This document shows, piece after piece, positions 1,394 through 25,393 of a stretch of 33,370 nt of DNA. The DNA comes from Trichocoleus sp. FACHB-46 (GTDB lineage: Bacteria; Cyanobacteriota; Cyanobacteriia; FACHB-46). A model generated the notes under the pieces. The model was not told the DNA's origin. It made no database searches and was given only the letters and a program-made list of their open reading frames with translations. Location: the NCBI RefSeq assembly GCF_014695385.1, contig NZ_JACJOD010000059.1:1-33370 (forward strand), read 5' to 3'. Positions within the stretch are counted from its first letter, which is position 1. The number at the start of each line of letters is the position of its first letter. A program made the position numbers and the translations under genes.

Positions 1394-2146
1394 GTGGCAA
1401 AGGTTATCTCATTTTTTAACCAAGCTGGGGGCACAGGCAAAACGACCTTGGCAATGAACTTGGGATATTCACTTTCCCAACAAGGACACCGTATTTTACT
1501 TGTGGATATGGACCCACAGTCCTCCTTGACTGTTTTCATGGGAGTGCAGCCTCATGAACTTGAGGACACTATTGCTCAAAGCATCCTGGATAGAAAACCG
1601 CTGCCTATTTTAAGCGGGGTTCATCAAATGGATCTAGTTCCAAGTAATTTGACGCTTAGTGCTGCTGATGTAAAGTTGGCAACGGCGATCGCTAAAGAGA
1701 CCCGCCTCAAAAAAGCGCTCTCTCCGGTTGAGTCTGCCTATGATTTTGTCTTGATTGACTGCCCGCCAACGTTGGGCGTTCTCAGTATCCTCTCCCTGGT
1801 AGCATCGACTCATATCCTGATCCCAATGCAAACTCAATATAAGAGCTTCGTTGGTTTAGATCTGCTGCTAGGTACGATTAGTGAACTTCAGCAAGAAGGG
1901 GTTGCTGCAGACCTGAAAATTGCTGGAGTAATTCCCAATCTGCACGATCGCACAGCCCAAAGTAAAGAGATTTTAGAGGCGGTGACAGAGCAATTTGGTG
2001 GCGTTGCACCCGTTTTCCCGCCTATTCCACGCGCAATTGCATTTGCAGACGCTTCAATGCAGCACCTACCGCTAGGGCTATATGACCCTAAACACCCTGC
2101 TCTTACTGTCTTGACAACTATTACTCAAAGTTTGGAGTCCTTGTAG
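1394..2146 (+). CDS. parA: ParA/Soj-type partition ATPase
   Basis: The protein has 250 residues and starts at GTG 1394. It is a deviant-Walker P-loop ATPase of the ParA/MinD class. It shows the Walker A motif NQAGGTGKTT at residues 9-18, the A' motif VDMDPQSS around 37-44 and the Walker B-like FVLIDCPP around 118-125. ParA dimers bind DNA non-specifically on the nucleoid and, with ParB bound to parS, position and segregate replicons. There is no N-terminal HTH extension, so this is a short Soj-like (type Ib or chromosomal-like) ParA that would not autoregulate by itself. Its stop overlaps the parB start by one base, indicating an operon with coupled translation. It is one of the main arguments that the window belongs to a plasmid or a self-maintained island. 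Confidence 0.93.
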   Translation: MAKVISFFNQAGGTGKTTLAMNLGYSLSQQGHRILLVDMDPQSSLTVFMGVQPHELEDTIAQSILDRKPLPILSGVHQMDLVPSNLTLSAADVKLATAIAKETRLKKALSPVESAYDFVLIDCPPTLGVLSILSLVASTHILIPMQTQYKSFVGLDLLLGTISELQQEGVAADLKIAGVIPNLHDRTAQSKEILEAVTEQFGGVAPVFPPIPRAIAFADASMQHLPLGLYDPKHPALTVLTTITQSLESL

Positions 2147-3084
2147 TGCCACCCCGTCGTAAGGCTGCATCTCAGCCCCAGCTTCGTAATGTTGCAGTCA
2201 TTCTCAACCGAGAGAGTCCTGCTCAGTCCGCTCAACCTGCTCAGCCAATTTCACTTGAAAAGATTCATTTGCCTGCAAAGCAACCCCGTCGTTTCTTTGA
2301 TGCAGACAAAATGGCTCAACTAGTAGCATCTGTGAAAGAGTTTGGCATTCTAGAGCCGCTTCTAGTTCGTCCATTGAAGAGTGGTGAGTATGAACTGGTC
2401 GCAGGGGAACGGCGGCTACGGGCAGCTCGTGAGCTAGGCCTAACTGAAGTGCCCATTTTGGTACATGATTTGGATGAGCGGCAAGCGCTTCAAGTGACTT
2501 TGATAGAGAATCTTCAGCGAGAAGATTTAAATCCGATTGAGGAAACAGAAGCAGTCTTAGACTTGCTCGCGATCGCTCTTGAAGTAGATAGGGATGAAGT
2601 AGTATCTATCTTGCATCAATCGTATAACGCTAAACAGCGTGGTCAGGAGTTGAATCAGAACGTTCTGATTCAAATTGGGAAGATTGAATCATTACTCTCA
2701 GAGATAGGTCGCTTCAACGCCGGAACTTTTCGCTCTAGCCGGCTTCCGCTTTTGAACCTTCCTGATAATGTTCTGTCTGCCTTACGGAACGGGGAGATCG
2801 AGTACACCAAAGGTCAAGCGATCGCCCGAGTTAAAAATGAAGCTCAGCGAGCTGAACTACTCAAGCAAGCAATTTCTGAGAACTTGCCTTTGAGTGAAAT
2901 TAAAGCAAGGATTCAGGAGTTTAAGTCTCAGCCAGAACTAGCGCCAGAGAAGGTGATTGCTCAACGATGGAGTGAAATTGGTAAGCGGTTACAAAAGGGC
3001 AAGATCTGGAGCGATCGTAAGAAACGGGATCGAATTACGAAACTATTGAATGAATTGGACAAACTAACCGCAAGCGATGACTGA
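2146..3084 (+). CDS. parB: ParB-type partition CTPase/DNA-binding protein
   Basis: The protein has 312 residues and starts at GTG 2146, inside the parA stop codon. After a basic, Pro/Gln-rich N-terminus (1-34) comes the ParB N-terminal CTPase domain. It contains GERRLRAA (87-94) and ENLQREDLNP (121-130), which are the nucleotide-binding boxes of ParB/Spo0J. The middle (about 130-250) is helical and should hold the parS-binding HTH. The C-terminal part is charged and probably dimerises. The linker between the N-domain and HTH (about 150-180) is longer and more degenerate than in chromosomal ParB. ParB loads at parS as a clamp and stimulates ParA. No canonical chromosomal parS (TGTTTCACGTGAAACA-like) was seen, so the cognate site may be the hairpin at the gene end or lie elsewhere. 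Confidence 0.92.
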   Translation: MPPRRKAASQPQLRNVAVILNRESPAQSAQPAQPISLEKIHLPAKQPRRFFDADKMAQLVASVKEFGILEPLLVRPLKSGEYELVAGERRLRAARELGLTEVPILVHDLDERQALQVTLIENLQREDLNPIEETEAVLDLLAIALEVDRDEVVSILHQSYNAKQRGQELNQNVLIQIGKIESLLSEIGRFNAGTFRSSRLPLLNLPDNVLSALRNGEIEYTKGQAIARVKNEAQRAELLKQAISENLPLSEIKARIQEFKSQPELAPEKVIAQRWSEIGKRLQKGKIWSDRKKRDRITKLLNELDKLTASDD

Positions 3085-10264: not shown

Positions 10265-10266
10265 GG

Positions 10267-11676
10267 CTAGGCACTTTGGTAATCGATGGTGGGGAATGGG
10301 CGATACGGGTTATCGAATAGAAGGCAGAGACATGCAGCCTCTAGCCTAGCAACCTCACAGTCGTGAGATAAAGCCCTTTGCCGATGTTCTGCTAAAGATG
10401 TTGATAATTCTGCGATTGTACACGTTGACAAAGACTGCATCTTTTTCTTGGTCGTTGGCTGACGTATCCACATGGCGATCGGTGTACCCTGGCTCAGTAA
10501 CTCATCCCAAAGGTTTTCCCGCTGCTGTGGGTTGTCATGTTCTACAAATCTACAGCCAACCACCTTTGAGCTTTTCCAGTTAATTCTTGTCTTGCCTATT
10601 ATCGGATCTATGTGAACCAGAGCCTTGGAACACTGTGACTGCTGTATAGTGAGCAGGCGATTCCAGTACTTTTTCCAGTCTCCTGATGCCAACTGATAAT
10701 CTGATGAAAAATGGCGATCGGAGGAACGCACAATTACTGCTTTGCAGCGTCTTCCACTATATTCCTGCTGCTTTCTTCCAATCTGAAACTGCCAGTGTTC
10801 CACAGGCAAACTCATGAGTTCAATAGGTAGAAAACACTGAATGATCAGTTCGGTTAAAGGAACACCGTGTTCATTTCCACAAGTAGTGATTAGTTCATTC
10901 AGAATATGCGGTAAATCATCCTGAGAATAGCCGGGAGCATATTTGGGGTCAGGTGGGACAGATATCGGGATTGGCTTTGAAACCAATTCAAGTTCAGGTC
11001 GGAAAGGACTCGAATCCGCAACAAGTGCAGCACTGACTAGATACCCCAAGAATGGGTCATTCAGAGCACGGGGTTTCACCTTCACCATTAAACAAATTTC
11101 TGCTGTTTCTATTTGCTCTGCAATTTGCTCCTGAACAGATAACCCCTGCGTTTTTGCCCATGATTCTAAAGGTTCCCGTTGTTCATTTTCTAAAGATGGC
11201 TCTTGAATCAAAAGACTAACAAAATGCAAAAGTGGTTCAGGTTCATTTGGGTCTCCCGGAATCTCTCTCAGTTGTCGCACTAAAGTCCCCAAGGTTTCGG
11301 GCACCGGACGAAGGCGACCTGCTGATAAGCAAGCTCTATAGGCTTTGGTAACTGTCTCAAAATCGATAGGAGCTAGAAGATCAATTAACGCTTGTAAAGT
11401 CTTAGGTACAGCAGTAGCTAATTCGTTCGCCTCAAGTTCCTGAATTTCTTTTTGAAGCTGATTGCACTCTAGTCCTACTCTCTCAAGGTTTTTGAGAATT
11501 GTGTCTAGTTGCCGTTCTAACTTGTTAATCTCTTGCGCATTCGTGGTGTGGTTACGTTGCCTAGCAACATCTTCATAGTCTTTCTGTAATTTCTCGAAAA
11601 AATTCTCTAACTCTTTCAGCTTAATTTTTTTACATTTGATCTCGTATGGTTCGCTCACACTACTTTCCCAATCCAT
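10267..11676 (-). CDS. VMAP-like adaptor (vWA-MoxR-associated protein)
   Basis: The protein has 469 residues from ATG at 11676. A GTG at 11658, just after the stop of the preceding gene, is an alternative start. Residues about 18-82 form a coiled coil (DYEDVARQRNHTTNAQEINK and onwards) that closely matches the C-terminus of the trypsin-TIR protein. A helical middle region (about 88-200) follows. The C-terminal half has the hallmarks of the VMAP C-terminal domain: LPIELMSLPVEHWQ, then GTPIAMWIRQ, then CLLFDNPYRPFP near the end. VMAPs are the third component of vWA-MoxR ternary systems, and their N-terminal domains are shared with effectors to bring them together. The gene overlaps its upstream neighbour by 17 bases with this start and is followed two bases later by MoxR. 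Confidence 0.82.
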   Translation of the reverse strand: MDWESSVSEPYEIKCKKIKLKELENFFEKLQKDYEDVARQRNHTTNAQEINKLERQLDTILKNLERVGLECNQLQKEIQELEANELATAVPKTLQALIDLLAPIDFETVTKAYRACLSAGRLRPVPETLGTLVRQLREIPGDPNEPEPLLHFVSLLIQEPSLENEQREPLESWAKTQGLSVQEQIAEQIETAEICLMVKVKPRALNDPFLGYLVSAALVADSSPFRPELELVSKPIPISVPPDPKYAPGYSQDDLPHILNELITTCGNEHGVPLTELIIQCFLPIELMSLPVEHWQFQIGRKQQEYSGRRCKAVIVRSSDRHFSSDYQLASGDWKKYWNRLLTIQQSQCSKALVHIDPIIGKTRINWKSSKVVGCRFVEHDNPQQRENLWDELLSQGTPIAMWIRQPTTKKKMQSLSTCTIAELSTSLAEHRQRALSHDCEVARLEAACLCLLFDNPYRPFPTIDYQSA

Positions 11677-13054
11677 CAAGCTCTATAGCTACCTTGTCCA
11701 TGTCTTCAGCGATCGCCTCAAGTTGTCGGTTCAGTTTGTTCCGATCAGCCGCATTGGTTGTGTAATCTCGCTGTTTAGCCAGTGCTTCATAGTCCGCTGT
11801 TAAACTATCCAGTCGTTGTTGCAAACTCTTTTCTTTAATCTGCTGCACCCGGCTCAAAGCACTTGGAAATGATTTTGGCTCTGTTATCGCTGGCTGATTG
11901 TATGTTGATTCTTTACCTACACCTATTTCTGGGAAGGCTGGTTTTTGTGGGGGTCTACCACTAGGTCTTAAACCATCCAACAATGTTTGTTTTGCTTCTA
12001 GTTCCGACTTTCCAACCAAATCTGTGTAAACAATAGGACGCAACATCCCCTCCGGTTTACACTCCTTCACCCGCACTGGAATTAGTTTACGCTCAAGAGA
12101 TTGCGGGTCATTGGCAAATGCTGCTGCCCATTCCGGCTGTGTATAGGAGGACTTGAGATAGGACTCGGAGAGAACCGCGATCGTCTTCTGGCTCTCAGCC
12201 GCTGCCCGCTGCATATCCAACACAAAATTTCCACCGGGTCGAAAATCCCAAGCTTGAATCACTACCGAATAACCAGCCTCTTCCAACGTCCAGGCAATCC
12301 ACTCTGCCCACTGCTTATCTGCCCGGTTATAACTAACAAAGAAATCCTTCATTGTCTGGTTCTCCAAGTCCGGTTTAGGAGCATCTGGCAGTTGAACAGA
12401 CTGTCCTAATTCTTCCCAGGCTCTCGTCAAAACTGACGTTGGAATCATGAACGCAGTTTTGGTTTCATCCCGTTTCTTGTCGGCGGCGACTGCCATTCCG
12501 ACAACTCCCTCAATCTGTTCATCCCAAATCGGAGCACCACTAAACCCGGGTTGAACCGGATGCCCCTGAGCCTTAATGTCCTCAATTTGTACCCAACCAC
12601 TTGCTAAGCGATCGCGAATGACACCGGAAGCCCAAATACCATCATCTCTTCGGGTAGGAAACCCAAAAATCTGGAAGGCATGTGCCCATAGTTCACTTGA
12701 GGAAACCAATCGGACAGGTTGGCAACCATTTGGAGGTGGCTCCTCTAAAACTAATCCCGCAATATCTTCACCTTCCTCCGCAGAGTTCAATGGCTGCAAT
12801 TGAACGGGGCACCAGAAAGTTACCTTTGCCTTAACCTTTTGCCCTGGCGCAGTCAGTGGAAAATCAAAGTCAATCCAATCAGTTGGTGCTTCTTGAGTTG
12901 TGGTAGGAAGCCCTAATGCTGCTGTAATCACATGGGCACAGGTTAGTAATTGACGGTCTGCCACCAGGAAACCTGCTCCCACCACAGCACCACTTTTGTT
13001 ATAGACTCGGGCGATCGCAGACTTGAATGCCTGTCGATAATTATTCTCGACCAT
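11660..13054 (-). CDS. Trypsin-like peptidase-TIR domain effector
   Basis: The protein has 464 residues. I chose the ATG at 13054, four bases after the previous stop; the open frame extends 60 bases further but overlaps the upstream gene. Residues 1-215 form a trypsin-like serine peptidase with His41 (LLTCAHVI), Asp97 (GEDIAGLVL) and Ser172 (GFSGAPIW), so the triad looks intact. Residues 235-365 form a TIR domain beginning MKDFFVSYNRADKQWAEWI. Glu308 in YTQPEW lies where the catalytic Glu of NADase TIRs is found. Residues about 400-464 form a coiled coil with DYEALAKQRDYTTNAADRNK, nearly the same as the VMAP N-terminus. There is no signal peptide, so it acts in the cytoplasm. I infer that this is the executing component: protease, NAD-cleaving, or both. 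The shared coiled coil would be the contact to VMAP. Confidence 0.88.
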   Translation of the reverse strand: MVENNYRQAFKSAIARVYNKSGAVVGAGFLVADRQLLTCAHVITAALGLPTTTQEAPTDWIDFDFPLTAPGQKVKAKVTFWCPVQLQPLNSAEEGEDIAGLVLEEPPPNGCQPVRLVSSSELWAHAFQIFGFPTRRDDGIWASGVIRDRLASGWVQIEDIKAQGHPVQPGFSGAPIWDEQIEGVVGMAVAADKKRDETKTAFMIPTSVLTRAWEELGQSVQLPDAPKPDLENQTMKDFFVSYNRADKQWAEWIAWTLEEAGYSVVIQAWDFRPGGNFVLDMQRAAAESQKTIAVLSESYLKSSYTQPEWAAAFANDPQSLERKLIPVRVKECKPEGMLRPIVYTDLVGKSELEAKQTLLDGLRPSGRPPQKPAFPEIGVGKESTYNQPAITEPKSFPSALSRVQQIKEKSLQQRLDSLTADYEALAKQRDYTTNAADRNKLNRQLEAIAEDMDKVAIELDGLGK

Positions 13055-13058
13055 GAGC

Positions 13059-13397
13059 CTAACTGGATTTCTCCTCTTTCCACTTAAGCGTGATCTCAAA
13101 GTTGACGTCCCCACTGATTGAGGTGAAAATGGCTCCTGCTTCGGCAGTTAACTTCAGCCCAAATTTCACTTCCACTTCATCAGCAGGCGTCGTCATCCCT
13201 CGCCTCAATCGAGTAACTAGTACAGAAGCTACAGGCTTCACCGCATCGATCGCCTCTTCAAAGGTTTGCCTTGCCTGAAGTACCATCTGCCCTGTGTTAA
13301 TGGCAACCCGTTCAACTGCAACAGCTTCTGGCTCTTCAACTTCAACCAGAAACTTTGTGCCGTCCTCTAGAGAAAACTGGGCAACTTCCTTATCCAT
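13059..13397 (-). CDS. Trypco1 (trypsin-co-occurring, CU044_2847-like) small protein
   Basis: The protein has 112 residues. I prefer the ATG at 13397, which overlaps the previous stop as TGATG; an in-frame TTG lies one codon earlier. The sequence opens with QFSLEDGTKFLVEVEEP and has a helix (QTFEEAIDAVKPVASVLVTR). It ends with the beta-strands VEVKFGLKLTAEAGAIFTS and FEITLKWK, the standard form of Trypco1. These proteins occur next to trypsin-like peptidases in bacterial conflict operons, and a chaperone or inhibitor-like role is suggested by context only. The gene is immediately upstream of the trypsin-TIR gene (4-base gap) and fits that association exactly. Confidence 0.82.
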   Translation of the reverse strand: MDKEVAQFSLEDGTKFLVEVEEPEAVAVERVAINTGQMVLQARQTFEEAIDAVKPVASVLVTRLRRGMTTPADEVEVKFGLKLTAEAGAIFTSISGDVNFEITLKWKEEKSS

Positions 13398-13579
13398 CAA
13401 CCTATTGGCTCCTGATTTTTAGCTCTCCCTCGTTGCCGCAATCGACGGATGAAGGAGCGGATTACCTGACGCTTACTCTCCTGACGCGCCAAGCAATAGT
13501 CTTCCAAAACCCTATACTCACTCTCTGGCAGTTCCACCGTTAGGCGCTTAATTGGTTCTGTAGAAATCTTTCTAAACAT
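13397..13579 (-). CDS. Ribbon-helix-helix (CopG-like) small DNA-binding protein
   Basis: The protein has 60 residues from ATG at 13579 (MFRKISTEPIKRLTVELPES). The frame is open to 13633, so a longer start is possible. The segment KRLTVELPESEYRVLEDYCL followed by ESKRQVIRSFIRRL has the strand-helix-helix pattern of RHH/CopG repressors and antitoxins, with a basic tail. It is the first gene of the operon and overlaps the Trypco1 start by one base. The likely role is autoregulation of the conflict/DGR operon. It could also be a stand-alone plasmid repressor that happens to be co-transcribed. Confidence 0.68.
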   Translation of the reverse strand: MFRKISTEPIKRLTVELPESEYRVLEDYCLARQESKRQVIRSFIRRLRQRGRAKNQEPIG

Positions 13580-14688: not shown

Positions 14689-14796
14689 CCATGCATAGCT
14701 ACTGTGACGATCACCTGCATCAGCAGCGTGACCAGTCGTACTTACTCACTTTGCACCCTCTGTCCCCTTGCCCCCACCGGACTAGAGAGTTGCATC

Positions 14797-16494
14797 ATGC
14801 CACGAAAACAAACCCCTGCCTGTGGAAGTCAGGCGATCGCCCCAAAGCCCGCTCGTCAGCGTTTATCAGAACCCCTGCCCCGCGACCCATTAGGCCAGCG
14901 CTTGTGCCAGCTCTTCCCCTACCCCTGGCAAGCGATCGTCGCACCTACCCCCGCAGAGGCTAGCCAAAAACCCGCTTGGCAGACACTCACCCAATACCCG
15001 CTCAAGCCCCGTAGTCTCTGGACCTACTGGCAGGATGCCGCTCAGCTCGTCGGCGTCCGCTTTGGCCCTACTACCATTTACGGCCTCATCGACCTGGATG
15101 CCTTCAGCCTGCATCATCCCACCCGCGATCGCCAAGCTCTCACCACCCTCCGAGCCGCTCTCGCCAGCATCGGCATTCACCAAACCGTTTTGCTGCGCTC
15201 CAGTTGGAACGGTGGCCTTCACCTCTACATCCCCCTACCCGAAGCCGTCCCCACCTTTGGTCTCGCCGTTGCCCTGAAGCACTGCCTAGAAGCTCACCAC
15301 CTACCCCTGCAAGCAGGCCAACTCGAAGTCTTCCCCAACGTCAAGCGCTACACCAAAGCCGGAGAGTATAGCGAATACAATGCCCATCGCCTACCTCTAC
15401 AACCCAGCAGTGGCTCTGTCCTCCTCAGCGATCGCCTGCAACCCTTGCCCAGCGATTTGCCCTCCTTCTTTCAGCAGTGGGATCAAGCTGTCGCAGCTCA
15501 GAATTTAGAGCAACTGCATGAAGCGATCGCTGTCGCCAAGAAGCAGCATCAGTACCGCTTCTACAACCGTCGCAGCAACATCGCCCTCTGGCAGCAAGAA
15601 CTGGAAATTGAAATGAAGCAAGGGTGGACAGGACCCGGACAAACAAACCACCTGCTCAAAACCATCGGCTGCTACGGCGTCGTCTTTCAATCCCTCTCTG
15701 GTGCCGCGCTCTCTCATTACATTGAACACACTGCCATCCACAGCCTTGGCTACCGAGAGTGGTGCCAACACCAGCACGAAATTAGCCGTCGCGCTCAAGA
15801 ATGGGCTACAGCCGTAGAAAACTATTACTGGCCGCTCGGCACCTCTCCCAAACGCGATCGCACCCTTGCTCGAGGCACTGCTGCCAACAACATCGTCAAC
15901 TTCAACCAGAAGCGAGCCGAAGATGCCCAGACGCGGATCAAGCAAGCTGTCTTGGAACTGAACCAACAAGGGCAACTACCTGATCGTCCCACCGCACGAG
16001 CCGAAGCGATCGCCTCAATGGCACAGTGCAGCCACAGTACCTTGCAGAAGTACAAAGAGCTGTGGCATCCCGAATGGTATGTAATAGAGCCACTAGAAAC
16101 AGTTGCAGCCGCATCACGGCCTCCAGCAACGGAACCAACCAAAGCGCTAGAAGAGGCTCCCACAGAGGAATTACACACCTTTACCTATATGAAGGGTGGG
16201 GGCCATGACGCTGCTTCGGAAAAACAAATAAACTCTACTGGGGAGGGTCCAGGGAGGGGGGAAATGAGTTTTCCACAGCCTTCGATTCTCGCTTCAGCGA
16301 TCGCCCTGGACGATCTCAGTGATGTGATTGTGGGAACCCAGATTCAAGTCAGGCGATTGGGATGGACTGTAGAGCAAACCCACCAGTTTATTGCCGATCA
16401 TTTCCAAGGGAAGCGCCGAAGTCAGCTGACGGATGATGAGCTACTGTGCTTGCTATATCGCCTCACAACGTACCCCTTTAGCGATCGCCCCTAG
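14797..16494 (+). CDS. Archaeo-eukaryotic-type primase (AEP/PrimPol-like) replication protein
   Basis: The protein has 565 residues. The ATG at 14797 (MPRKQTPACG) is chosen because the upstream extension (to 14704) is low-complexity and unlike a protein. Three AEP motifs are visible: IYGLIDLDAF with Asp99 and Asp101, then SSWNGGLHLYIPL with His142, then QLEVFPNVKRY with Glu177. The middle is helical with basic patches. Residues about 390-425 (ARAEAIASMAQCSHSTLQKY) look like a helix-turn-helix. A Pro/Glu-rich linker leads to a C-terminal helical domain. Proteins of this form are common on cyanobacterial plasmids and probably prime or initiate replication. No helicase motifs are present. The Tn7-like left end begins ten bases after its stop. 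Confidence 0.75.
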   Translation: MPRKQTPACGSQAIAPKPARQRLSEPLPRDPLGQRLCQLFPYPWQAIVAPTPAEASQKPAWQTLTQYPLKPRSLWTYWQDAAQLVGVRFGPTTIYGLIDLDAFSLHHPTRDRQALTTLRAALASIGIHQTVLLRSSWNGGLHLYIPLPEAVPTFGLAVALKHCLEAHHLPLQAGQLEVFPNVKRYTKAGEYSEYNAHRLPLQPSSGSVLLSDRLQPLPSDLPSFFQQWDQAVAAQNLEQLHEAIAVAKKQHQYRFYNRRSNIALWQQELEIEMKQGWTGPGQTNHLLKTIGCYGVVFQSLSGAALSHYIEHTAIHSLGYREWCQHQHEISRRAQEWATAVENYYWPLGTSPKRDRTLARGTAANNIVNFNQKRAEDAQTRIKQAVLELNQQGQLPDRPTARAEAIASMAQCSHSTLQKYKELWHPEWYVIEPLETVAAASRPPATEPTKALEEAPTEELHTFTYMKGGGHDAASEKQINSTGEGPGRGEMSFPQPSILASAIALDDLSDVIVGTQIQVRRLGWTVEQTHQFIADHFQGKRRSQLTDDELLCLLYRLTTYPFSDRP

Positions 16495-16503
16495 CAAGAG
16501 AGG

Positions 16504-16707
16504 TGTACATTCTCGAACTAAACGCCGCAATTTATCAGCCGTTTTCGCTTAAAAATAATCAGGCGAAAAATATATACGGTAAGGGTTACAAAAGCTTTTC
16601 TCTGGTATGGCGACATTTGAATTAATTCGCATATTATGCGATGCAAAATCAGATTCGCGAATTAAACGTCGCTTTTAACCAATGTTTTCTTTGCAAATTG
16701 TGTGTCG
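16504..16707 (+). mobile_element. Left end of a V-K CAST-like Tn7 element with TnsB-binding repeats
   Basis: The segment starts with TGTACA, the terminal sequence of type V-K CASTs and related Tn7-like elements. It contains spaced repeats: ATTCTCGAACTAAACGCCG (16509-16527), ATTCGCGAATTAAACGTCG (16653-16671; 16 of 19 bases match the first) and TTTGCAAATTGTGTGTCG (16690-16707). A partly inverted copy lies around 16611-16632. These resemble the TnsB sites at the left ends of Anabaena cylindrica-type CASTs, as I recall them. A five-base duplication would be agagg (16499-16503). No matching right end was found downstream, so the duplication cannot be confirmed. Confidence 0.7.
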
Positions 16708-16869
16708 TTTTCTTGTGCCAAAGTCACCTTTCTCTTCCCTCTAGACAGCGGCTGGAAAAGGTTAGGCGTCTCTGCTCTCAATGACTCTTAAATCTTATGC
16801 AGCAATGTATAGCAACCCCGAGAAAAGGACAGTAAATTTCTACCATTCCAATCAATACGGCATTCTCCT

Positions 16870-18729
16870 ATGGATGAGAGCCAAGTCAAATTTTTAGAGC
16901 TTGATTCAGTGGCTTTTGATGAAGTGCGGTTGAGCGATCGCACCTTTGATACTGACCCGTCCAAAATCCTGATCGAATCATCCGATCCGCAGAAGTTGCG
17001 CTTTGGTCTGATTGAGTGGCTAGCTGGGGCACCTAACCGTCAAGTCAAAGCTGAACGGAAACAAGCGATCGCCCAAACTCTGGAAATATCAACTCGCCAG
17101 GTTGAGCGGTTGCTCAATCAATACACCGAGGACAGGTTACGGGAGACGGCAGGGATCGAGCGTTCTGACAAGGGACAGCATCGAATCCATGAGTACTGGC
17201 AAGACTACATCCGCAAAGTTTACGAGCAAAGTCTTAAGGATAAACATCCTCTCAAGCCTGCTGATGTGGTACGCGAGGTACAGCGCCATGCGGTGATTGA
17301 TCTACGGCATGAAGAAGGGGACTGGCCTCATCCTGCAACGATTTACCGAATTTTGAAGCCCTTAGTCGAGCAGCAGAAACGAAAAAAGAAAATTCGCAAT
17401 CCGGGGTCGGGTTCATGGCTAGTTGTGGAAACCCGAGATGGAAAATCACTCAAAGCCGATTTCAGCAATCAGATTCTCCAGTGCGATCACACCAAGCTCG
17501 ATATTCGGATTGTGGACAAAGATGGCAAACTCCTGAACTGGAGACCTTGGCTCACCACAGTGGTTGACACTTTCTCAAGTTGCTTGGTTGGTTACCATCT
17601 CTGGCATAAACAGCCTGGGGCTCATGAAGTCGCTCTCACCCTTAGACATGCCATATTGCCCAAGCAGTATCCACCGAATTATGAATTGGAGAAACCTTGG
17701 GAGATTTATGGAGCACCACTACAGTACTTCTTTACCGACGGCGGTAAGGATTTGAGTAAATCCAAGCTCATTCAAACAGTGGGTAAGAAAATAGGATTTC
17801 AATGCGAACTGCGCGATCGCCCGATTCAAGGGGGCATCGTTGAGCGGCTTTTTAACACCATTAATACTCAGGTTCTCCAACCGTTTCCCGGCTACATCTC
17901 CCAAGAGGAGGGTGGAGCAGAACGGGCAGAAAAGGAAGCCTGTCTCACCTTCGAGGATATCGACAAATTTTTAGCGGGTTACTTCTGCGACGACTACAAC
18001 CATCAGCCCTACCCTAAAAGCCCAGGTGATACGCGCTTTGAGCGATGGTTTAGGGGAATGGGAAAGAAGCTGCCTGAACCTCTCAATGAACGTGACCTGG
18101 ACATCTGCTTGATGAAAGAGGAACAACGGGTGCTTCAGGCGCATGGGTCTGTTTACTTTGCCAACCTGACCTACCGCTGCGAAGAATTGCGATCGCGACC
18201 AGGTGAATATGTCACGCTGGCTTATGACCCTGACCACATTTTGACCCTGTACATCTACAGCCAAGCCACAGGAGAAGCAGGTGAGTTTATTGGCTATGCT
18301 CACGCGATCAACCTGGATACTCAAGATTTGAGCCTAGATGAGCTGAAGCAATTGAACAAAGCCCGGAGTCATGCTAAGCGTAACCATTCAAATTATGATG
18401 CGCTCGTAGCACTGAACAAGCGCCAGAAACTCGTAGGAAAGCGGCAGCAAGAGCAGAAGGAACGGCAGCGCTCAGAGCAGAGAAAACTGCGTGGAAAGAG
18501 CCAGCAGCACTCGAACGTGGTGAAACTGCGCCAAGAGCGAGCAGGCAAAGCTGCTAGCAGTTCCGAATCGATCGAACTGCTGCCAGAAAGGGTTGCGCCC
18601 GAATCAATGAAGCCTCAGTCCCCTGTACTTCCTCCACAGACACTTGAGGTTGCGGCTTCTGCACCTCAGCCTGAGGAACGGCATCGACTGGTTGTGACCA
18701 AGAAGCAGGTACTGAAGAGGACTTGGTAG
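16870..18729 (+). CDS. tnsB: TnsB-like DDE transposase (type V-K CAST relative)
   Basis: The protein has 619 residues and appears full length. An N-terminal helical/HTH DNA-binding region (about 40-165) includes STRQVERLLNQY and RETAGIERSDKG. The catalytic RNase H fold has Asp206 (LQCDHTKLDIR), Asp290 (YFFTDGGKDL) and Glu325 (GGIVERLFNTINTQ). A beta-barrel follows (about 420-500). The basic, poorly conserved C-terminal tail (about 510-619) ends HRLVVTKKQVLKRTW, the part that contacts TnsC in CASTs. It closely resembles the TnsB of the Anabaena cylindrica CAST as I remember it. It catalyses strand transfer at the transposon ends, and without TnsA transposition is replicative. The left-end repeats lie directly upstream, as in CASTs. 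The DDE set is intact but its AAA partner downstream is broken and no Cas12k, TniQ or CRISPR array is in the window. Confidence 0.92.
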   Translation: MDESQVKFLELDSVAFDEVRLSDRTFDTDPSKILIESSDPQKLRFGLIEWLAGAPNRQVKAERKQAIAQTLEISTRQVERLLNQYTEDRLRETAGIERSDKGQHRIHEYWQDYIRKVYEQSLKDKHPLKPADVVREVQRHAVIDLRHEEGDWPHPATIYRILKPLVEQQKRKKKIRNPGSGSWLVVETRDGKSLKADFSNQILQCDHTKLDIRIVDKDGKLLNWRPWLTTVVDTFSSCLVGYHLWHKQPGAHEVALTLRHAILPKQYPPNYELEKPWEIYGAPLQYFFTDGGKDLSKSKLIQTVGKKIGFQCELRDRPIQGGIVERLFNTINTQVLQPFPGYISQEEGGAERAEKEACLTFEDIDKFLAGYFCDDYNHQPYPKSPGDTRFERWFRGMGKKLPEPLNERDLDICLMKEEQRVLQAHGSVYFANLTYRCEELRSRPGEYVTLAYDPDHILTLYIYSQATGEAGEFIGYAHAINLDTQDLSLDELKQLNKARSHAKRNHSNYDALVALNKRQKLVGKRQQEQKERQRSEQRKLRGKSQQHSNVVKLRQERAGKAASSSESIELLPERVAPESMKPQSPVLPPQTLEVAASAPQPEERHRLVVTKKQVLKRTW

Positions 18730-18732
18730 GAC

Positions 18733-19200
18733 ATGGCACAATCAGAGCTAGCGATTCAGGCTCCAGTAGAAGTTTTAGCGCCTCAACTCGACCTCTGCGA
18801 TGTCCTGGCCACAACGGCGGCGATCGAGGAACTATTCAAAACAGCGTTTATTCCCACCGATCGGGCTTCGCAATATTTCAGATGGCTAGATGAACTGCGA
18901 TTGTTGAAGCAGTGTGGTCGAGTGATTGGCCCCAGAGAAGTTGGCAAAAGCCGATCGTCCGCACATTATCAAGAAGTGGATCGAAAACGGGTTTCATGCG
19001 TCAAAGCGTGGTCCAACTCAAGCTTTAAACGGTTGTTTTCCCAAATCCTCAGGGACATCAACCATGCAGCACCAATGGGAAAACGGCAGGACTTACGCTC
19101 TCGATTAGCTGGATGTTTGGAGCCCTTTGGCATTGAACTTTGGTTGCTTGAGTCCAAGAGCTTACTAGCGGCGGGTAAGGCGGAACGTTATGCAGCCTGA
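18733..19200 (+). pseudogene. tnsC: TnsC, truncated before Walker B
   Basis: The frame encodes 155 residues and starts three bases after tnsB. It matches the first half of CAST TnsC: IPTDRASQYFRWLDELRLL, a Walker A-like GPREVGKS (66-73), VKAWSNSSFKRLFSQIL, INHAAPMGKR and RLAGCLEPFGIEL. TnsC normally continues with the Walker B segment (VIVDNADN-like). Here the sequence switches to an unrelated tail (WLLESKSLLAAGKAERYAA) and stops. Intact TnsC is about 275 residues, so Walker B, the sensors and the C-terminal lid are missing and ATP-driven filament and target selection should be lost. The same frame after the stop reads on to about 19290 with two more stops and ends LEQLLKLQRVIQVSNILDMV, a relic of another unidentified gene. 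The junction looks like a deletion that removed the rest of the transposon. Confidence 0.82.
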
Positions 19201-19330
19201 GTTATTAGCAAAGACATCTATGATTAGTTAGAACAATTGCTGAAGTTACAACGAGTGATTCAGGTTTCCAATATTTTGGATATGGTGTGAAGCCCGACTA
19301 GCTACTGAGAATAAGGAGCAGGTGCCATCA

Positions 19331-20146
19331 ATGATTAGAAAGGAAGAGGCAATCGCGCAGCCAGAAGCAATTTTTAATGCCGCATCTGATTACTTTGACG
19401 CTCCAGCATTATCTTTTTGGAATCGCTTTGGACAACAAACTATTGATCGGCTCTCGCTTCGTTCCGGCGATCACGTTTTAGATGTTTGTTGTGGGACTGG
19501 TGCTTCTGCAATTCCAGCAGCAGTAAGTGTGGGTTCTACGGGACAGGTGCTGGGGATAGATCTGGCTGAATCTTTGCTTGAACTGGCACGTAACAAGTCA
19601 CGGCAGCAAGGTCTTGAGAATATCGAGTTTCGATATGGGGATTTTGAGAATCTAGGGTTACCCAACGAAAGTTTTGACGCGATTGTTTGTGTTTTCGGGA
19701 TTTTCTTTGTTCCAGACATGCTCGCAGCAGTTCGAGAACTTTGGCGGATGGTTCGTCCTGGCGGGAAACTAGCCATTACCTCCTGGGGAGAGAAGGTGTT
19801 TGAACCTGCTAATCAAAATTTCTGGGGTGCGATTGAGGCTGAGCGCCCAGATCTGTGTAGGAAATTTACGCCGTGGGAGCGGATCTGCGATCCTGCCTCA
19901 CTACAATCACTACTAGAAGCAGGCGGCGCAACCCATGTAGAGATTTTCGCTGAAGTCGGCACTCATGAACTGGTTACTCCAGAAGATTGGTGGACGATGG
20001 TTTTGGGGGGTGGACTCAGAGGTACGATCGACCAACTTGATCCGGCAGCAAGGGAGCGTGTCCGACAAGCGAATCTGCATTTCCTTCGGACTAATGAAGT
20101 TCATTCACTTGAGGTTAATGTCTTGTATGCAGTAGCCCAGAAATAA
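19331..20146 (+). CDS. Class I SAM-dependent methyltransferase
   Basis: The protein has 271 residues from ATG 19331; an in-frame GTG at 19322 is possible, and AAGGAG (19313-19318) could serve either. The SAM-binding motif I is HVLDVCCGTGASAIPAA, followed by an acidic residue after strand 2 (VLGIDLAESLLELA). IEFRYGDFENLGLPNESFDA and AIVCVFGIFFVPDM are motifs II/III, and MVRPGGKLAITSWG is the post-motif. It belongs to the UbiE/Methyltransf_11-like group of small-molecule methyltransferases; the substrate cannot be told. It stands alone, with a relic of the Tn7-like element before it and an attC-like hairpin plus terminator after it. That is the layout of a captured gene cassette. Confidence 0.88.
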   Translation: MIRKEEAIAQPEAIFNAASDYFDAPALSFWNRFGQQTIDRLSLRSGDHVLDVCCGTGASAIPAAVSVGSTGQVLGIDLAESLLELARNKSRQQGLENIEFRYGDFENLGLPNESFDAIVCVFGIFFVPDMLAAVRELWRMVRPGGKLAITSWGEKVFEPANQNFWGAIEAERPDLCRKFTPWERICDPASLQSLLEAGGATHVEIFAEVGTHELVTPEDWWTMVLGGGLRGTIDQLDPAARERVRQANLHFLRTNEVHSLEVNVLYAVAQK

Positions 20147-20195
20147 CTCCAAAGAAATTAGGTAATCGGTATTTTTAGATGGGTCCTGTCGTCGG

Positions 20196-20283
20196 TTGCA
20201 TAACATTGCGCTGAACTGGAACGGAGCGTGAATTATCTGTGAGCCCCAGAGCATCGCCGTCCGATTAGCTTCAACGTTAACAA
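20196..20283. repeat. attC-like imperfect inverted repeat
   Basis: The left arm TTGCATAACATTGCGCTGAA (20196-20215), continuing to about 20230, pairs imperfectly with the right arm ending CTTCAACGTTAACAA (20269-20283). Several single unpaired bases and a roughly 20-base loop are present. Imperfect arms with extrahelical bases, AAC/GTT at the tips and a position just after a lone ORF are features of integron attC sites. The core does not match GTTRRRY exactly, and no integrase or second site is visible. Confidence 0.4.
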
Positions 20284-20290
20284 CTAGCAA

Positions 20291-20323
20291 CAATGCCGAA
20301 AATGAGTGAATTCGGCATTGTTT
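20291..20323 (+). terminator. Terminator after the methyltransferase gene
   Basis: CAATGCCGAA (20291-20300) and TTCGGCATTG (20311-20320) form a perfect 10-bp stem with a 10-base loop, followed by a short TTT. The most likely role is termination of the methyltransferase transcript. It could also serve in the opposite direction. Confidence 0.6.
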
Positions 20324-20641
20324 GGATTGCGATCGCTTGAGCTCCCAATGGTTTGAGGCGTACTACAAGAAGCACGCCGGTATTAGTTTTCGGCAATGTT
20401 TGCAGGAAACGTACAACACCTCCTCGCAAACCGAAAAATCAAGAGGTGCGATCGCAGCATTTTGATCACGCCTTTCCACTCCCTTTCACTCCCCTCGGCT
20501 CATCCAGGAAATTTATCCAATTTAGTCCTAGTGGAAAATTAGTATTACTATCCGCTGAGACTAATTTTTGAGGGCGCAGCGGGGTGCTTAGAAACCTATA
20601 CCGCTCCACCCACTGGCTGTGGGTACTTTCCATTTCCTCAC
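20324..20641. other. Intergenic region with a short unrecognised reading-frame remnant
   Basis: About 320 bases lie between the terminator and the end of the histidine kinase gene. Plus-strand bases 20344-20466 read SQWFEAYYKKHAGISFRQCL and then to a stop without a start codon. It has the composition of a real protein and may be the C-terminus of a lost gene. The rest shows nothing recognisable apart from scattered GCGATCGC-type sites. Confidence 0.35.
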
Positions 20642-23614
20642 TCACTTTCTTCCTATCAAAGTTGTGATGGCTTTGATGAGTTTATCCGGTTCAATGGGTT
20701 TGGCGAGATGCTGCTGAAATCCCGCTTGCAGAGCTTGTTGGTGGTTCAACTCTCCCACATAAGCAGTTAGGGCGATCGCCGGAGTTTGCCCGCCCTGCTC
20801 TGGGGGTAAGGCTCTCAGCTGCTGCATCAGCATATAGCCATCCATGTGCGGCATGCCCACATCACTGACAATTACATCTGGAACAGACTGCTCTAGGACT
20901 TCCAGCGCTGCCTCACCAGAGCTAACCGCTGTGACCTTCGCCCCGTTTTGTTCTAGCAGAAAAGCCTGAAATTCACGGGTATCTGTATCGTCATCTACCA
21001 GCAAAACTTGGATGTTGTTTAAAGGCGCTTTTGTTTCGGTTGGAGTACGGTTGGATCGAGGCGTGATGGATGCGGTTTGCAGCATGACGGGCAATTGCAC
21101 GATGAAGGTTGCACCTTGATTCTCCCCAGCGCTCTCTGCACTCACCGTGCCCCCGTGCAGTTCCACGATTTGTCGCACGATCGCCAGACCTAACCCTAAG
21201 CCTCCGAATCTGCGCGTAGTGGAACCGTCTTCTTGGCGAAAATACTCAAACACATGTGGTAGAAACTCGGGATTAATACCCTTGCCCGTATCGATTACCT
21301 GAATTTGAGCCGATTGCCCGATTTGTTTCAGTTCGACCGTGACCTGTCCACCGTTAGGTGTGAATTTCACGGCATTCGTCAGCAAGTTCCACACAACTTG
21401 CTGGAGGCGTGCCGCATCACCGAAGACGGGCGCGATATCCGAGGTGAGGTCCAGCACGACTGCAATGTTCTTGGCTTCTGCCGCCAACTGTACGGTTTCA
21501 AGCGCCGCAGAAATCACAAACGCCAAACTGGTGGGGGTCGCGGTTAAGGTCAGCTTGCCCTGCATAATGCGGGCGATGTCAAGCAGATCTTCAATCAGTT
21601 GCGATTGTAGCTTGGCATTGCGCTCGATCGTGGCGATGGCTTCGGCTTGCCGGGTCGCATCGAGTTTGCCGGTTTGCAGTAAGCGCGTCCACCCCAAAAT
21701 CGGGTTCAGGGGCGATCGCAGTTCATGCGACAGCACCGCTAGAAACTCATCTTTGATGCGATTCGCTCGTTCAGCCGTGGCGCGAGCGGCTTGTTCGCGT
21801 TGCAGGAGATGTTCGCGTTCAGCCTCAGCCCGTTTCTTCTCACTGATGTTGAGGACGGTGCCGATGAAGCGGCAGGCAATACCTGCTGGATTGAAAAACG
21901 CTCTCCCTTTTGCCGCAATCCAGCGCTCTACACCATCTTCGAGACCGATCGTGCGGTATTCAATATCATACTCACCGTTACTTTCAGGGTTGAACGCAAA
22001 CTGCACTACTTGATCCGTGCGCTCGCGATCCTCTGGATGTAACCCAGATAAGAAGACATCGTAGTTAACCTCTGATTCAGGTGACAGCCCAAATGCGGCT
22101 TTGCATTGGTCGTCCCATTGCAGGACACCTGTGATCGGGTTAAAGTCCCAGATGCCCAGCTCGGCTGAAGCCAATGCCAACCGTAAGCGATTTTCACTTT
22201 CACGCCAGGCGGCCTCGGCCTGTTTGCGATCGGTGATGTCTGCCAGTGCTCCAGGAAAAGCGAGTGGCGTCCCATCCGCACCATATTCAACGCGACCTCG
22301 TGCCACCAGCCAGCGCTGCTCCCCCGTCGCTGTGTGGACGCGGTACTCAGTGACATATTCCTCGCCCGTTTCAATGGCTTGATGAATGGCTGCGACTACT
22401 CGGGGGCGGTCTTCTTCGTGCATCGCTTGTACAAATAGTTCGAGTGGTAAGCCGCTCACCGCTTGTACTGGGTCAACGCCAAACAGGTGAGCAAAGGCTT
22501 GATTCACGATGACGAGATTCTCTGGAATCTTCCACCGCCAGGTGTAAATCGCTCCTGCCAGCAAAGCCGCCTCTAACTGCACATGAGTTTCTCGCAGGTC
22601 AGCTTCTATCTGCTGTCGCTCTAGTTCCGTGACCACTCGATCCGCAAAAATTGTCAGCAAGGATGCTGCCAGTTGCGTCTGCTCCAATGGCTTGCCATCC
22701 ATAACCCCTAATAACCCGAGGGGAGTGCCGCTGGAGTTAAAGAAGGGAACCGCTACATAGCTTTCAACTGCAAGTGGTTTCAGTAGGGGTGCGTTGGGAA
22801 ATTGAGCTTGCACATTGCGTGGGTAGCAGCAAGTTTTTCGTTGTGCAATGACTTCCCAACAGGGGGTGTCTTGCAAAGGATATTCCAGGTTATCTACGAG
22901 CTGAGCATGAGCGCAGGTAGCGACCGTCCTCAGCATTTTGGGATCATCACCCCTGACTAAGCCGATGTAGGCATAATTCATGCCTAAAACTCTGGCGAGG
23001 TGCTGCACCAGAGCCGAGAAAAAAGCATCCCCCGTGACCGTCGATACGCCTTGAGTCATCTCTAGCAGCGCCGCATTGACCTGAGCAATCTGATGAGCGG
23101 CCAATCGCAATTCCAGTTCATCCACGACCATTGCTGCCAGGTCAACTAAAGTCGCTTGTTGCTTGGGGCTCAAGGGCTCATGGGGTTGAGTATCGAGCAA
23201 ACAGAGCGTACCGAGATTGAAGCCGTCTGGAGTCAGGAGGGGGGCACCTGCATAGAAGCGTACACCGGGTTCACTTTGCACAAAGGGATTACAGACAAAA
23301 CGATCGTCCTGGCGAGTATCGGGAACAATCAGAGACTCATTCGTTAACAGGGCAAAGCTGCAAAGGGTCGCATCACGCGGAACTTCAGAAGCATCGAAGC
23401 CAATGGTGGACTTAAACCAAGCTCTAGACTCATCGACGAGAGAGATCAGGACGATGGGCAAATCAAACAGCCGGGCTGCCAGGGTAGTAATGCGATCGAA
23501 TGCAGCTTCGGGGGGAGTGTCGAGAATCTTGTAGCGATGCAACGCTGCCAACCGCTCAGTTTCATTTGCTGGGAGGGGTCTAGTTACAAGCTTTTGAGAC
23601 AGTTGCTCAGTCAT
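20642..23614 (-). CDS. Hybrid sensor histidine kinase (GAF-GAF-PAS-PAS-HisKA-HATPase-REC)
   Basis: The protein has 990 residues from ATG 23614 (MTEQLSQKLVTRPLPANETE). The open frame begins at TTG 23701, but the extra residues do not look like protein. Two GAF domains come first (about 20-175 and 180-345), the first with ILDTPPEAAFDRITTLAARL. Two PAS/PAC pairs follow (about 355-480 and 485-610), then HisKA with the phospho-accepting His near 629 (VLSHELRSPLNPILGW) and the HATPase with N, G1 and G2 boxes (NLLTNAVKFTP, DTGKGI, GGLGLGLAI). The C-terminal receiver domain has its phospho-accepting Asp near 917 (DVIVSDVGMPHMDGY). No membrane segments are seen, so it is a cytoplasmic sensor. The first GAF type is common in stress or light sensing, but no bilin-binding Cys motif is evident. 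No response regulator or output gene is adjacent. Confidence 0.93.
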   Translation of the reverse strand: MTEQLSQKLVTRPLPANETERLAALHRYKILDTPPEAAFDRITTLAARLFDLPIVLISLVDESRAWFKSTIGFDASEVPRDATLCSFALLTNESLIVPDTRQDDRFVCNPFVQSEPGVRFYAGAPLLTPDGFNLGTLCLLDTQPHEPLSPKQQATLVDLAAMVVDELELRLAAHQIAQVNAALLEMTQGVSTVTGDAFFSALVQHLARVLGMNYAYIGLVRGDDPKMLRTVATCAHAQLVDNLEYPLQDTPCWEVIAQRKTCCYPRNVQAQFPNAPLLKPLAVESYVAVPFFNSSGTPLGLLGVMDGKPLEQTQLAASLLTIFADRVVTELERQQIEADLRETHVQLEAALLAGAIYTWRWKIPENLVIVNQAFAHLFGVDPVQAVSGLPLELFVQAMHEEDRPRVVAAIHQAIETGEEYVTEYRVHTATGEQRWLVARGRVEYGADGTPLAFPGALADITDRKQAEAAWRESENRLRLALASAELGIWDFNPITGVLQWDDQCKAAFGLSPESEVNYDVFLSGLHPEDRERTDQVVQFAFNPESNGEYDIEYRTIGLEDGVERWIAAKGRAFFNPAGIACRFIGTVLNISEKKRAEAEREHLLQREQAARATAERANRIKDEFLAVLSHELRSPLNPILGWTRLLQTGKLDATRQAEAIATIERNAKLQSQLIEDLLDIARIMQGKLTLTATPTSLAFVISAALETVQLAAEAKNIAVVLDLTSDIAPVFGDAARLQQVVWNLLTNAVKFTPNGGQVTVELKQIGQSAQIQVIDTGKGINPEFLPHVFEYFRQEDGSTTRRFGGLGLGLAIVRQIVELHGGTVSAESAGENQGATFIVQLPVMLQTASITPRSNRTPTETKAPLNNIQVLLVDDDTDTREFQAFLLEQNGAKVTAVSSGEAALEVLEQSVPDVIVSDVGMPHMDGYMLMQQLRALPPEQGGQTPAIALTAYVGELNHQQALQAGFQQHLAKPIEPDKLIKAITTLIGRK

Positions 23615-24067
23615 AGAAATGGGTGAGGACGGTGAATCAAGATCGGTGTTAGTCGCAAGCCATGAAAGATGGCTGTAGATTCTAACCAGTACGTTAATCA
23701 AATTGGCGATCGCTTTTGAGTATCAGAATTCCCGATGATCCCTAGAGGTAGATAGCTTTATAGAGGAGAGTACAAAACCATCGCACCACTTAGCAATCAA
23801 AATTTCCCATCACCATACGAAGGCGGAAAGGCGGAACTACTTTTAGAAACTGAGAGCCGCGATCGCCCCCTCCAGCTGTACTTCCGAAACCTCTAAATAC
23901 CGCTAAAGCGCTTGTGACCTGCGGGGCCCAGATATCTCCTGAATCACTCTGCTCTCTTGCACCCCATGTAGCTTCTAGGCTTTGTACTACTCTGTCTTAT
24001 AAGCATAGGCTTTGTAAATTTAAGGCATTAGAACATTCCAAGTAAAGCTAACAATTTCAAAACCGTG
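23615..24067. other. Intergenic region containing a recombinase relic
   Basis: Upstream of the histidine kinase about 450 bases carry no intact gene. The only recognisable content is the tyrosine recombinase relic at 23841-23950, annotated separately. The rest is AT-rich and no promoter can be assigned with confidence. Confidence 0.4.
23841..23950 (-). pseudogene. Relic of a tyrosine recombinase C-terminus
   Basis: The plus-strand sequence from about 23841 (tttagaaactgagagcc) through gatatctcctgaatcactc runs parallel to 24806-24920 with many substitutions over about 105 bases. That second copy encodes the C-terminal GHRSLQALQRYLEVSE region of a recombinase. Here the frame is broken and key residues are altered. 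It is therefore an older, more decayed copy on the other side of the membrane-protein gene at 24068-24697. Confidence 0.65.
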
Positions 24068-24697
24068 TTAAGCGTCATCAGTTCTCGTTGCTTGTACCTT
24101 TGTGGAAAGTATGTTGCCTACGTAGTCTCGCTGTTCTTCTGGAAGGAGAAGCTTTGCGCTAGGTTTCAGGGAAAACATCGAACCCGGTTTTACAGTGATT
24201 ACAAGAAGGTTAGGCTCTGCCCGGTCCCAGTGGTAAGCAGTTATCTCTTCCCACTTCAGCAAAACAAAGCCAAGGTAAATGCCGTTTTCATAAACAAGTA
24301 AATTGCTAAAGACCGATAGGGCGTAGCTAATTGAAAAACTCCAAAGTAGAAGCAGGGGCGACCAATCTCGTAATGAACTCGGGAAATTTGGAGTACCACC
24401 CATCACTTCATAAATTATGAAAGCTAAGGCAATGAGGCTAATAACAATATAAATAACGGCAAGAGACTGAGCTAAATAATTATTCTGAAGACGGCCTACT
24501 CTCCTCAATAGAGAGCCTGTTTCTCTATGGCCATAGGCTGCCCAATTTAACACTGGAATCCATATAAGAAGGCTAGCCAAAATCAGAAAAGATGAGGGGA
24601 AATCTAGCCTTGCATCAATTCCTGAGAGGGCCAAGCAGTAGTACAAACCAATAAAGACAACGAGGCCCAGAATGAAAAAAAGAAAAAAGCGGGGCAT
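24068..24697 (-). CDS. DUF5673-like integral membrane protein
   Basis: The protein has 209 residues from ATG 24697 (MPRFFLFFILGLVVF); a TTG four codons upstream is in frame. Four hydrophobic segments (about 3-25, 35-57, 75-100 and 113-137) are followed by a soluble C-terminal domain of about 65 residues. That domain runs from ENGIYLGFVLLKWEEITAYH to LLLPEEQRDYVGNIL. The C-terminal pattern (G-x2-L-L-x-W-x-x-I-x-x-Y/H-W, a strand pair, then P-x2-x-R-x2-V-x2-I-L) is that of DUF5673, a PH-like membrane-associated domain of unknown role. A second protein with the same architecture is encoded at 30889-31608. Recombinase relics lie on both sides, suggesting it arrived as cargo. Confidence 0.7.
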   Translation of the reverse strand: MPRFFLFFILGLVVFIGLYYCLALSGIDARLDFPSSFLILASLLIWIPVLNWAAYGHRETGSLLRRVGRLQNNYLAQSLAVIYIVISLIALAFIIYEVMGGTPNFPSSLRDWSPLLLLWSFSISYALSVFSNLLVYENGIYLGFVLLKWEEITAYHWDRAEPNLLVITVKPGSMFSLKPSAKLLLPEEQRDYVGNILSTKVQATRTDDA

Positions 24698-24806
24698 TCT
24701 ATGTTCCAAGTGATTTAATGCAGACCAGAGCTTAAAAACATTAACGGATTGTTCAACTCCGGAAGCAATTGCTTATGTCCTCCATGCTTTGTGAAGCATC
24801 AATACT

Positions 24807-25360
24807 TCAAAAACTGAGAGAGGCGATCGCCCCCTCCAGTTGCAGTTCCGACACCTCCAGATAGCGTTGGAGGGCCTGCAAGCTACGGTGTCCCGATATC
24901 TCCTGAATGACTCGTAATGGCACTCCGGCACTACTCATCTGGGTTAGAGCAGTTCGTCTAAAACTATGCGTACTAACTCCTACTAGCCCCAAGCGATCGC
25001 ACGTCTCTCGCAGAATCTCATCCGCTGACTTGGGGTTAATGTGGCCGCGCCCGTGCCGTCCGGGGAAGAGGTACTGTTTTTACCCGCCCTAGCGCGGTAC
25101 GTCTCCAGGTATCCCCTTAGAACTGCGTTAACTGGAATCTGGCGCGTCTCCTGCTTCCCCTTCGTGTTGGCCTTGCGCAGAGTAATCTTCATTCTGACTC
25201 CAGCTGCATCATAAGAGTCTGTGATCAGCATCGAACAAGCTTCACTGATACGACATCCCGTGTAGAGACAGATGCCAAAAAGGGCACGATCGCGATCGCC
25301 CTCAAACGCTTCAAACAACTTGCCAATTTCGTCAGACGTTAAAACCTTAGCTTTGCCTTA
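24807..25360 (-). pseudogene. Tyrosine recombinase/phage integrase, frameshifted
   Basis: Three reading-frame pieces together make a XerC/D-like catalytic domain. The upstream piece (about 25360-25319) reads KVLTSDEIGKLFEAFEGDRD after a frame change near KVDGKAK. The middle (25318 to about 25085) holds LFGICLYTGCRISEACSML with the first catalytic Arg. At a five-A run in GGTAAAAACAG (near 25080) one base appears to be missing. The next frame reads KQYLFPGRHGRGHINPKS and so on into HSFRRTALTQMSSAGVPL (His-x-x-Arg), SGHRSLQALQRYLEV (His and nucleophilic Tyr) and the end. All catalytic residues survive, so inactivation is recent or the frameshift is a sequence error. The N-terminal core-binding domain is absent or not recognised upstream. 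Confidence 0.8.
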
Positions 25361-25393
25361 CCGTCTACCTTCACGAAGCTGCTTCAGCAATTA

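Follow-up and report, generated by a model that had tools for sequence, protein, structure and literature searches.

A V-K CAST remnant is joined to half of an integron attC site on a plasmid-like contig of Trichocoleus sp. FACHB-46

The window, by which we mean the whole 33,370-nucleotide stretch of DNA that was analysed (contig C59 of the draft genome of Trichocoleus sp. FACHB-46, G000; 6.56 Mb in 92 contigs), carries a V-K CAST of the ShCAST group that is reduced to one end, a full tnsB and the first half of tnsC (Table 1). Homology to other CASTs stops near 19140, and from there the sequence is that of an integron attC site, of which only the 3' half is present. We consider it very likely (about 0.85) that a plasmid-borne V-K CAST was cut by a deletion running from tnsC into the attC site, and that the remnant is now immobile. 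A sequence-only reading had described a CAST reduced to its left end, a full TnsB and half of TnsC. The reduction is as described, except that the end at 16504 is the tnsB-side end, which is the right end in the published V-K nomenclature (as given in the available text of PMC9938897).

Table 1. Features of the CAST remnant and its surroundings (positions are those of the window)
Feature	Position	Strand	Basis
ParA-like and ParB-like partition genes	1394..3084	+	NCBIfam profiles
Replication-related gene, plasmid-type	14704..16494	+	tblastn against plasmid records
AGAGG, 5 bp just outside the end	16499..16503	.	read from the sequence
tnsB-side (right) end, four TnsB-type repeats	16504..16869	+	matrix scan and spacing
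tnsB, 619 aa, open, DDE triad kept	16870..18729	+	match to ShTnsB
tnsC up to codon 136; has Walker A, lacks everything from Walker B on	18733..19140	+	homology
attC 3' half, ends in core GTTATGC	19140..19193	+	match to attC sites on C81 and C50
Probable gene cassette, core to core	19188..20276	+	two AACGTTA cores, 19184 and 20273
Second attC-like site	20198..20282	+	attC model R1, built without this site

The right end, tnsB and the start of tnsC

The CAST end begins at TGTACA, and its repeats start at 16510, 16626, 16654 and 16690. We scored them with a matrix from 16 sites in six relatives (maximum score 31.6) and took the chance level from 20 shuffled windows, where the top score was 15.2 and each window had 0-4 sites scoring at least 9. 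The four repeats score 8.9, 10.9, 21.5 and 17.9: two of the four are above chance by score, and the other two are supported by their spacing. This spacing (116/28/36) is shared with five relatives (114-115/28/37 in G257, G035, G141 and G117, and 116/29/36 in G251), which places the end at TGTACA, 16504. No further repeat scoring at least 9 was found elsewhere in the window, and none right of 16708. The terminal repeat, at 8.9 versus 26.6-30.8 in G257, G035, G141 and G117, has decayed further than the tnsB gene. A pattern for ShCAST ends has 0 matches in the window. We also considered a far end at 1360 (TGTACA after GGTCGGCGTAAACTCGC) as the missing end on a circular plasmid, but its repeat-matrix score is below 9.

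The position of the far end in the relatives agrees with 16504 being the right end, because their left end adjoins a tRNA-Thr gene, at a distance of 5 bp in G130, 12 bp in G257, 8 bp in G169 and 14 bp in G117. (The stretches examined from G035 yielded no tRNA gene.) We made no use of PAM spacing: the PAM sits on the left-end side, and that side is lost here.

TnsB matches ShTnsB (PDB 7svw) over residues 31-554 with 392.8 bits (E = 2.6e-116), and its D206, D290 and E325 align with D205, D287 and E321 of ShTnsB, which are named as the catalytic residues in the available part of PMC9527255. It thus belongs to the V-K group, DDE triad included. Our class search covered 388 genomes drawn evenly from a larger group, with at most 3 candidates scored in each. 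TnsB was present at E ≤ 1e-150 in 19 of the 388 genomes, counting the source genome, and the best other protein (from G130) is 82% identical. The closest CASTs, those of G130, Tildeniella nuda (G257, L005) and Myxacorys californica (G035, L006), have TnsB proteins that are 78-82% identical to ours, and the window shares with V-K CASTs the tnsB-tnsC order, the TGTAC tip and, for G257 and G035, the spacing of the repeats in the tnsB-side end. It differs from them in that the C-terminal half of TnsC, TniQ, Cas12k, the left end and the tRNA gene are missing and the terminal repeat is decayed.

TnsC, TniQ and the far-side terminal repeat are present in G130, G257, G169, G035 and G117. The Cas12k of G130 is confirmed by family (NF038191, 850.9 bits), and by eye there are similar open reading frames in the other four. 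Some relatives are themselves incomplete: G130 is without the tnsB-side end because of a contig edge, the G141 stretch stops short of Cas12k, in G169 the TniQ is spread over two frames and the tnsB-side end was not seen, and G117 has a broken tnsB. In this last case (G117:C6, about 2768080-2771230), the tnsB of a V-K CAST with TnsC and TniQ is broken by internal stops and its N-terminal part is displaced by about 1.3 kb.

With synonymous sites near saturation, dN/dS for TnsB against five relatives is 0.071-0.100 (0.040-0.103 among the relatives), and for TnsC codons 1-136, also near saturation, it is 0.030-0.078 (0.042-0.105 among the relatives). At columns that are invariant in the other five sequences, TnsB is changed at 23 of 400 (relatives, 2-29 of 379-406) and the TnsC piece at 6 of 96 (relatives, 2-9 of 92-99). 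As neither has an excess of amino-acid change, either the break is recent on the dN/dS scale or TnsB is still used; this test cannot separate the two. The 619 open codons, the intact DDE residues and a dN/dS that is no higher than the relatives' (given near-saturated synonymous sites) could be taken to mean that selection maintains TnsB as an orphan, either to bind DNA or to act as a transposase in trans. We view this as very unlikely: dN/dS does not distinguish selection from recent breakage, TnsB's own terminal repeat has decayed as described above, and neither a pair of ends nor a complete V-K TnsC was found. That an orphan TnsB works in trans, for example on incoming V-K ends, as a helper with no target choice of its own, seems just as improbable.

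An attC half-site at the break in tnsC

DNA homology to the relatives' CASTs stops at 19136-19141 in G130, G257, G169, G117 and G141 and at 19151 in G035; against L009 and L010 it stops at 19137 and 19067. TnsC retains GPREVGKS, which we take to be Walker A, and its alignment stops after FGIEL, ahead of Walker B. The sequence-only reading had put the break before Walker B at 19137, within the range in most relatives. The fragment is only weakly similar to solved structures (E = 0.059 for ShTnsC), yet it is 85% identical to the TnsC of one relative. Because coding ends at codon 136, it is not a complete TnsC AAA+ ATPase; it is just the attC half, free of stops in the tnsC frame, that carries the open reading frame on to 19200. 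We rejected the idea that the tail of this frame, WLLESKS, is a mutated Walker B, as the same DNA aligns with attC sites.

It had also been suggested that the junction after FGIEL could tell what replaced the cargo, and it does: tnsC is followed by half an attC site from an integron and then, probably, a gene cassette. We place the junction at about 19139-19141. Just beyond it, 19148-19190 matches C81:28075-28117 with 88% identity; on contig C81 these positions are the 3' half of an attC whose form is TAACAATCCGCCTGCACACCGACCG ... CGGCGGGTGAGGCGGAACGTTA. An attC on C50 aligns with the window from about 19140. We also built an attC model; its eight source sites, all outside the window, include those on C81 and C50. 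It matches 19117-19193 at 15.8 bits (E = 0.11), which is weak and not independent of the direct match to C81 and C50. The model's best match in the window is the second site, also weak at 16.0 bits (E = 0.093), and the third-ranked match has 10.9 bits. As single-stranded DNA, the second site folds no better than shuffled sequences (191 of 200 shuffles equal or surpass it on the + strand and 127 of 200 on the - strand). The argument for these sites is therefore carried by their position and orientation and, for the first site, by direct similarity.

Between the two cores lies a segment that is probably a gene cassette. Its open reading frame (19322-20146) encodes a class I SAM methyltransferase (Pfam Ubie_methyltran, 87.9 bits), and its upstream boundary falls at the core of the attC 3' half that matches the sites on C81 and C50. 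Integrons in cyanobacteria are already in print (PMC8352920 and PMC2426708, in their available parts). The window resembles cyanobacterial integrons and orphan cassettes in its attC cores, its cassette-like spacing and the presence of attC sites elsewhere in the genome; it differs from them in that the first attC is only half a site and no complete IntI scored above the cut-off. With the same model, attC matches at E ≤ 0.05 occur on C38, C49, C50, C51, C60, C76 and C81, and there are none at this threshold in the examined stretches of C16, C44 and C66. C81 also matches the integron integrase family TIGR02249 over residues 1-79 only, with 93.5 bits, below the cut-off of 265, and no complete IntI above that cut-off was found in the genome. 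Five other TIGR02249 matches, at 20-23 bits, have little meaning, and weak signals were also seen in all 14 of 14 control genomes.

On C81, the region 19351-28120 (L033) is an integron-like array with a 5' intI fragment and eight attC matches on the + strand; the array also contains a group II intron, which by eye interrupts another attC. A dispersed element occupies 20288-25575 of the window, with a hairpin left end (repeat 20288-20640). Other copies are at C38:3480, C49:14512, C50:11967, C51:1533, C66:21119, C76:180 and C81:28126. The copies in the window and on C66 include a histidine kinase, and a 191-aa open reading frame with weak matches to tyrosine recombinases is broken in the window and whole on C66. 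In six of the eight copies with an intact left end (partial copies left out), the element is preceded, at a distance of 5-10 bp, by the end of an attC match; these are the copies in the window (a weak match) and on C38, C50, C51, C76 and C81, and not those on C49 and C66. It may be that the dispersed element inserts at integron attC sites or brings such sites with it. In the CAST of Cyanobacteria bacterium FACHB-63 (L008, 4655-10001), a histidine kinase with 74-76% DNA identity to the window's kinase (20642-23701) lies between the tnsB-side end and tnsB. The V-K CAST of Myxacorys californica (G035, 23011-27461 of stretch L065) lies near three attC matches, a weak one (E = 0.1) at 2.3 kb and two clear ones at 3.3 kb (E = 9.8e-5) and 4.4 kb (E = 7.2e-4).

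The genome is a draft in 92 contigs, and attC sites and dispersed repeats are numerous in it, which raises the concern that the junction is an assembly artefact, in which a CAST contig was joined to a cassette array. By eye, tnsC and the attC overlap by about 1-3 bases, which is as a rule too short to mislead an assembler, and the remaining part of tnsC was found on no other contig, so we judge an artefact to be very unlikely. Counting against the deletion reading, the 388-genome class search revealed no second genome with the tnsC-attC junction and no empty site.

Another account of the same junction is that the integron cassettes were cargo of the CAST, in which case the deletion would be internal and the left end would lie beyond the end of the contig. 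This overlaps with our preferred reading, in that the deletion is the same and its extent differs, so the odds of the two are not additive. One survey found an intact or partial integron in 10% of Tn7-like transposons (available text of PMC8649781), and the contig does stop at 33370 without a left end, but the scan right of 16708 gave no repeat scoring at least 9, the only related end elsewhere in the genome (at up to 3 mismatches) is a tip on C24 with a different flank, and among the 19 sources of the relatives' CAST stretches (some of them partial) attC matches at E ≤ 1 were found only in L065, outside the CAST. We regard cargo as unlikely.

Other CAST parts in the genome

The sequence-only reading held that the targeting parts are missing, and our searches agree. 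At E ≤ 1, nothing in the window matches the G257 TniQ or Cas12k; no V-K TniQ lies beside tnsC in the window; and Cas12k was not found in the window or in the genome at E ≤ 1, although an empty Cas12k search alone carries little weight. A complete V-K CAST elsewhere in the genome had been proposed as something to look for, and a split but complete TnsC as something that would overturn the claim. Neither turned up: there is one match to the V-K TnsB at E ≤ 0.01 and hence no second copy, and at E ≤ 10 a full-length TnsC query finds residues 1-142 only, in the window, and the C-terminal half was not found in the draft genome. CRISPR-like direct repeats were not found in the four stretches of the window that remain when 3401-13399, 16504-19140 and 26251-29849 are set aside. 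Beyond the end, tnsB and tnsC, the window has no DNA in common with the relatives' stretches except for WD40-gene matches to G130.

A search of the genome for the terminal CAST repeat (up to 3 mismatches) gave a single match, at C24:54709-54733 with 2 mismatches, and the reversed control pattern gave 0. (The pattern is too distant to match the window's own decayed end, and other decayed ends could escape it as well.) The tip on C24 is altered to TGTAGA and is 19 bp from a chromosomal tRNA-Val gene, which points at it. Within 20 kb there is one other site scoring at least 12, at 13.3. In the same-genus genomes G001 and G002, the tRNA-Val site is about 47 bp shorter and is without the tip. The C24 match is a solo left-end tip, probably from a separate chromosomal insertion at tRNA-Val. 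It is flanked by GAACA and the window end by AGAGG, so these look like two insertions, and we rejected the idea that they are the two ends of one. No pair of V-K ends was found in the genome with this one pattern at up to 3 mismatches.

These results bear on two further suggestions of the sequence-only reading. It proposed that TnsB might act on the ends of relatives elsewhere, which finds no support, as the only other V-K end found is the solo C24 tip with its altered sequence. It also proposed a search for an AGAGG duplication. AGAGG is possibly half of a 5-bp target-site duplication, but a left end with its AGAGG partner was not found by the repeat scan of the window or the terminal-repeat search of the genome (up to 3 mismatches), and the sole related end has GAACA.

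The TniQ family profile PF06527, which is not a V-K TniQ query, has two matches in the genome, both on C32, and none in 14 control genomes. C32:24627-31373 (L032) is a separate Tn7-like element with these two TniQ-family genes, a fused transposase of 953 aa (730 bits to PDB 9bw1_M) and an ATPase-like open reading frame of 410 aa. We considered this element as a source of helper parts and rejected it, since its transposase belongs to another group.

A plasmid-like setting

The CAST end begins 9 bases after the replication-related gene. By tblastn (E ≤ 1e-5), this gene matches 66 of 72,556 plasmid records, and 54 of the 66, in ten named genera, are cyanobacterial. The best match is 47.4% (Leptolyngbya sp. 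BL0902). Among the 15 plasmid matches listed, 2 are annotated "replication-related protein", and no Pfam family matched. The ParB-like gene scores 116.7 bits against TIGR00180 (cut-off 58.45); the ParA-like gene has NCBIfam matches that are all below their cut-offs. The replication-like and partition genes make the contig compatible with a plasmid. Comparison of the contig's ends revealed no terminal overlap that would indicate circularity, and no plasmid record matched the DNA. A scan of the window with Rfam gave no match, and there are no tRNA genes in it.

Other genes lie on the same contig. At 4302-5399 is a reverse transcriptase that adjoins a gene with a terminal FGE-sulfatase domain (5829-9230), and a gene that resembles the latter by eye is at 3445-4305; we take the region 3445-9230 to be a candidate diversity-generating retroelement, which it resembles. 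It is followed at 9227-13114 by a conflict-system-like region with an AAA ATPase, a VMAP-C/EAD9 protein and a trypsin-TIR-EAD9 protein.

Discussion

We propose that a V-K CAST once inserted into a plasmid-like replicon, downstream of its replication gene, and that a later deletion joined tnsC codon 136 to the middle of an integron attC. The deletion would have taken out the remainder of tnsC together with tniQ and cas12k and, to judge from the contig, the tracrRNA, the CRISPR and the left end as well, leaving behind the right end and the full TnsB. TnsB is presumably inert; it may bind its end. The remnant should not move. Only one end is left, which makes excision of any element impossible; a functional TnsC of the V-K type is lacking, and our searches turned up no target selector of that type. 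According to the available text of PMC9371665, TnsB binds TnsC via a C-terminal hook, and removal of the hook abolishes transposition. The remnant looks like an ordinary immobile relic.

Degenerate V-K CASTs are known: 12 degenerated Cas12k proteins were set aside in PMC9938897 (in the part available). Those too are decayed CASTs in cyanobacteria. The window differs from them, as far as that part describes them, in that it keeps the tnsB side, the cas12k side is gone and an attC is joined on.

These findings do not change the known mechanism of CASTs. V-K CASTs have been described as having a two-pathway life, with a tRNA home site and plasmids (available part of PMC11406308), and to find, in one genome, a remnant on a plasmid-like contig and a left-end tip next to a tRNA gene is what that description predicts. 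The window is a snapshot of the death of an RNA-guided transposon: the break in this CAST falls within a recombination site of an integron, and the cyanobacterium that carries it has attC sites on several contigs.
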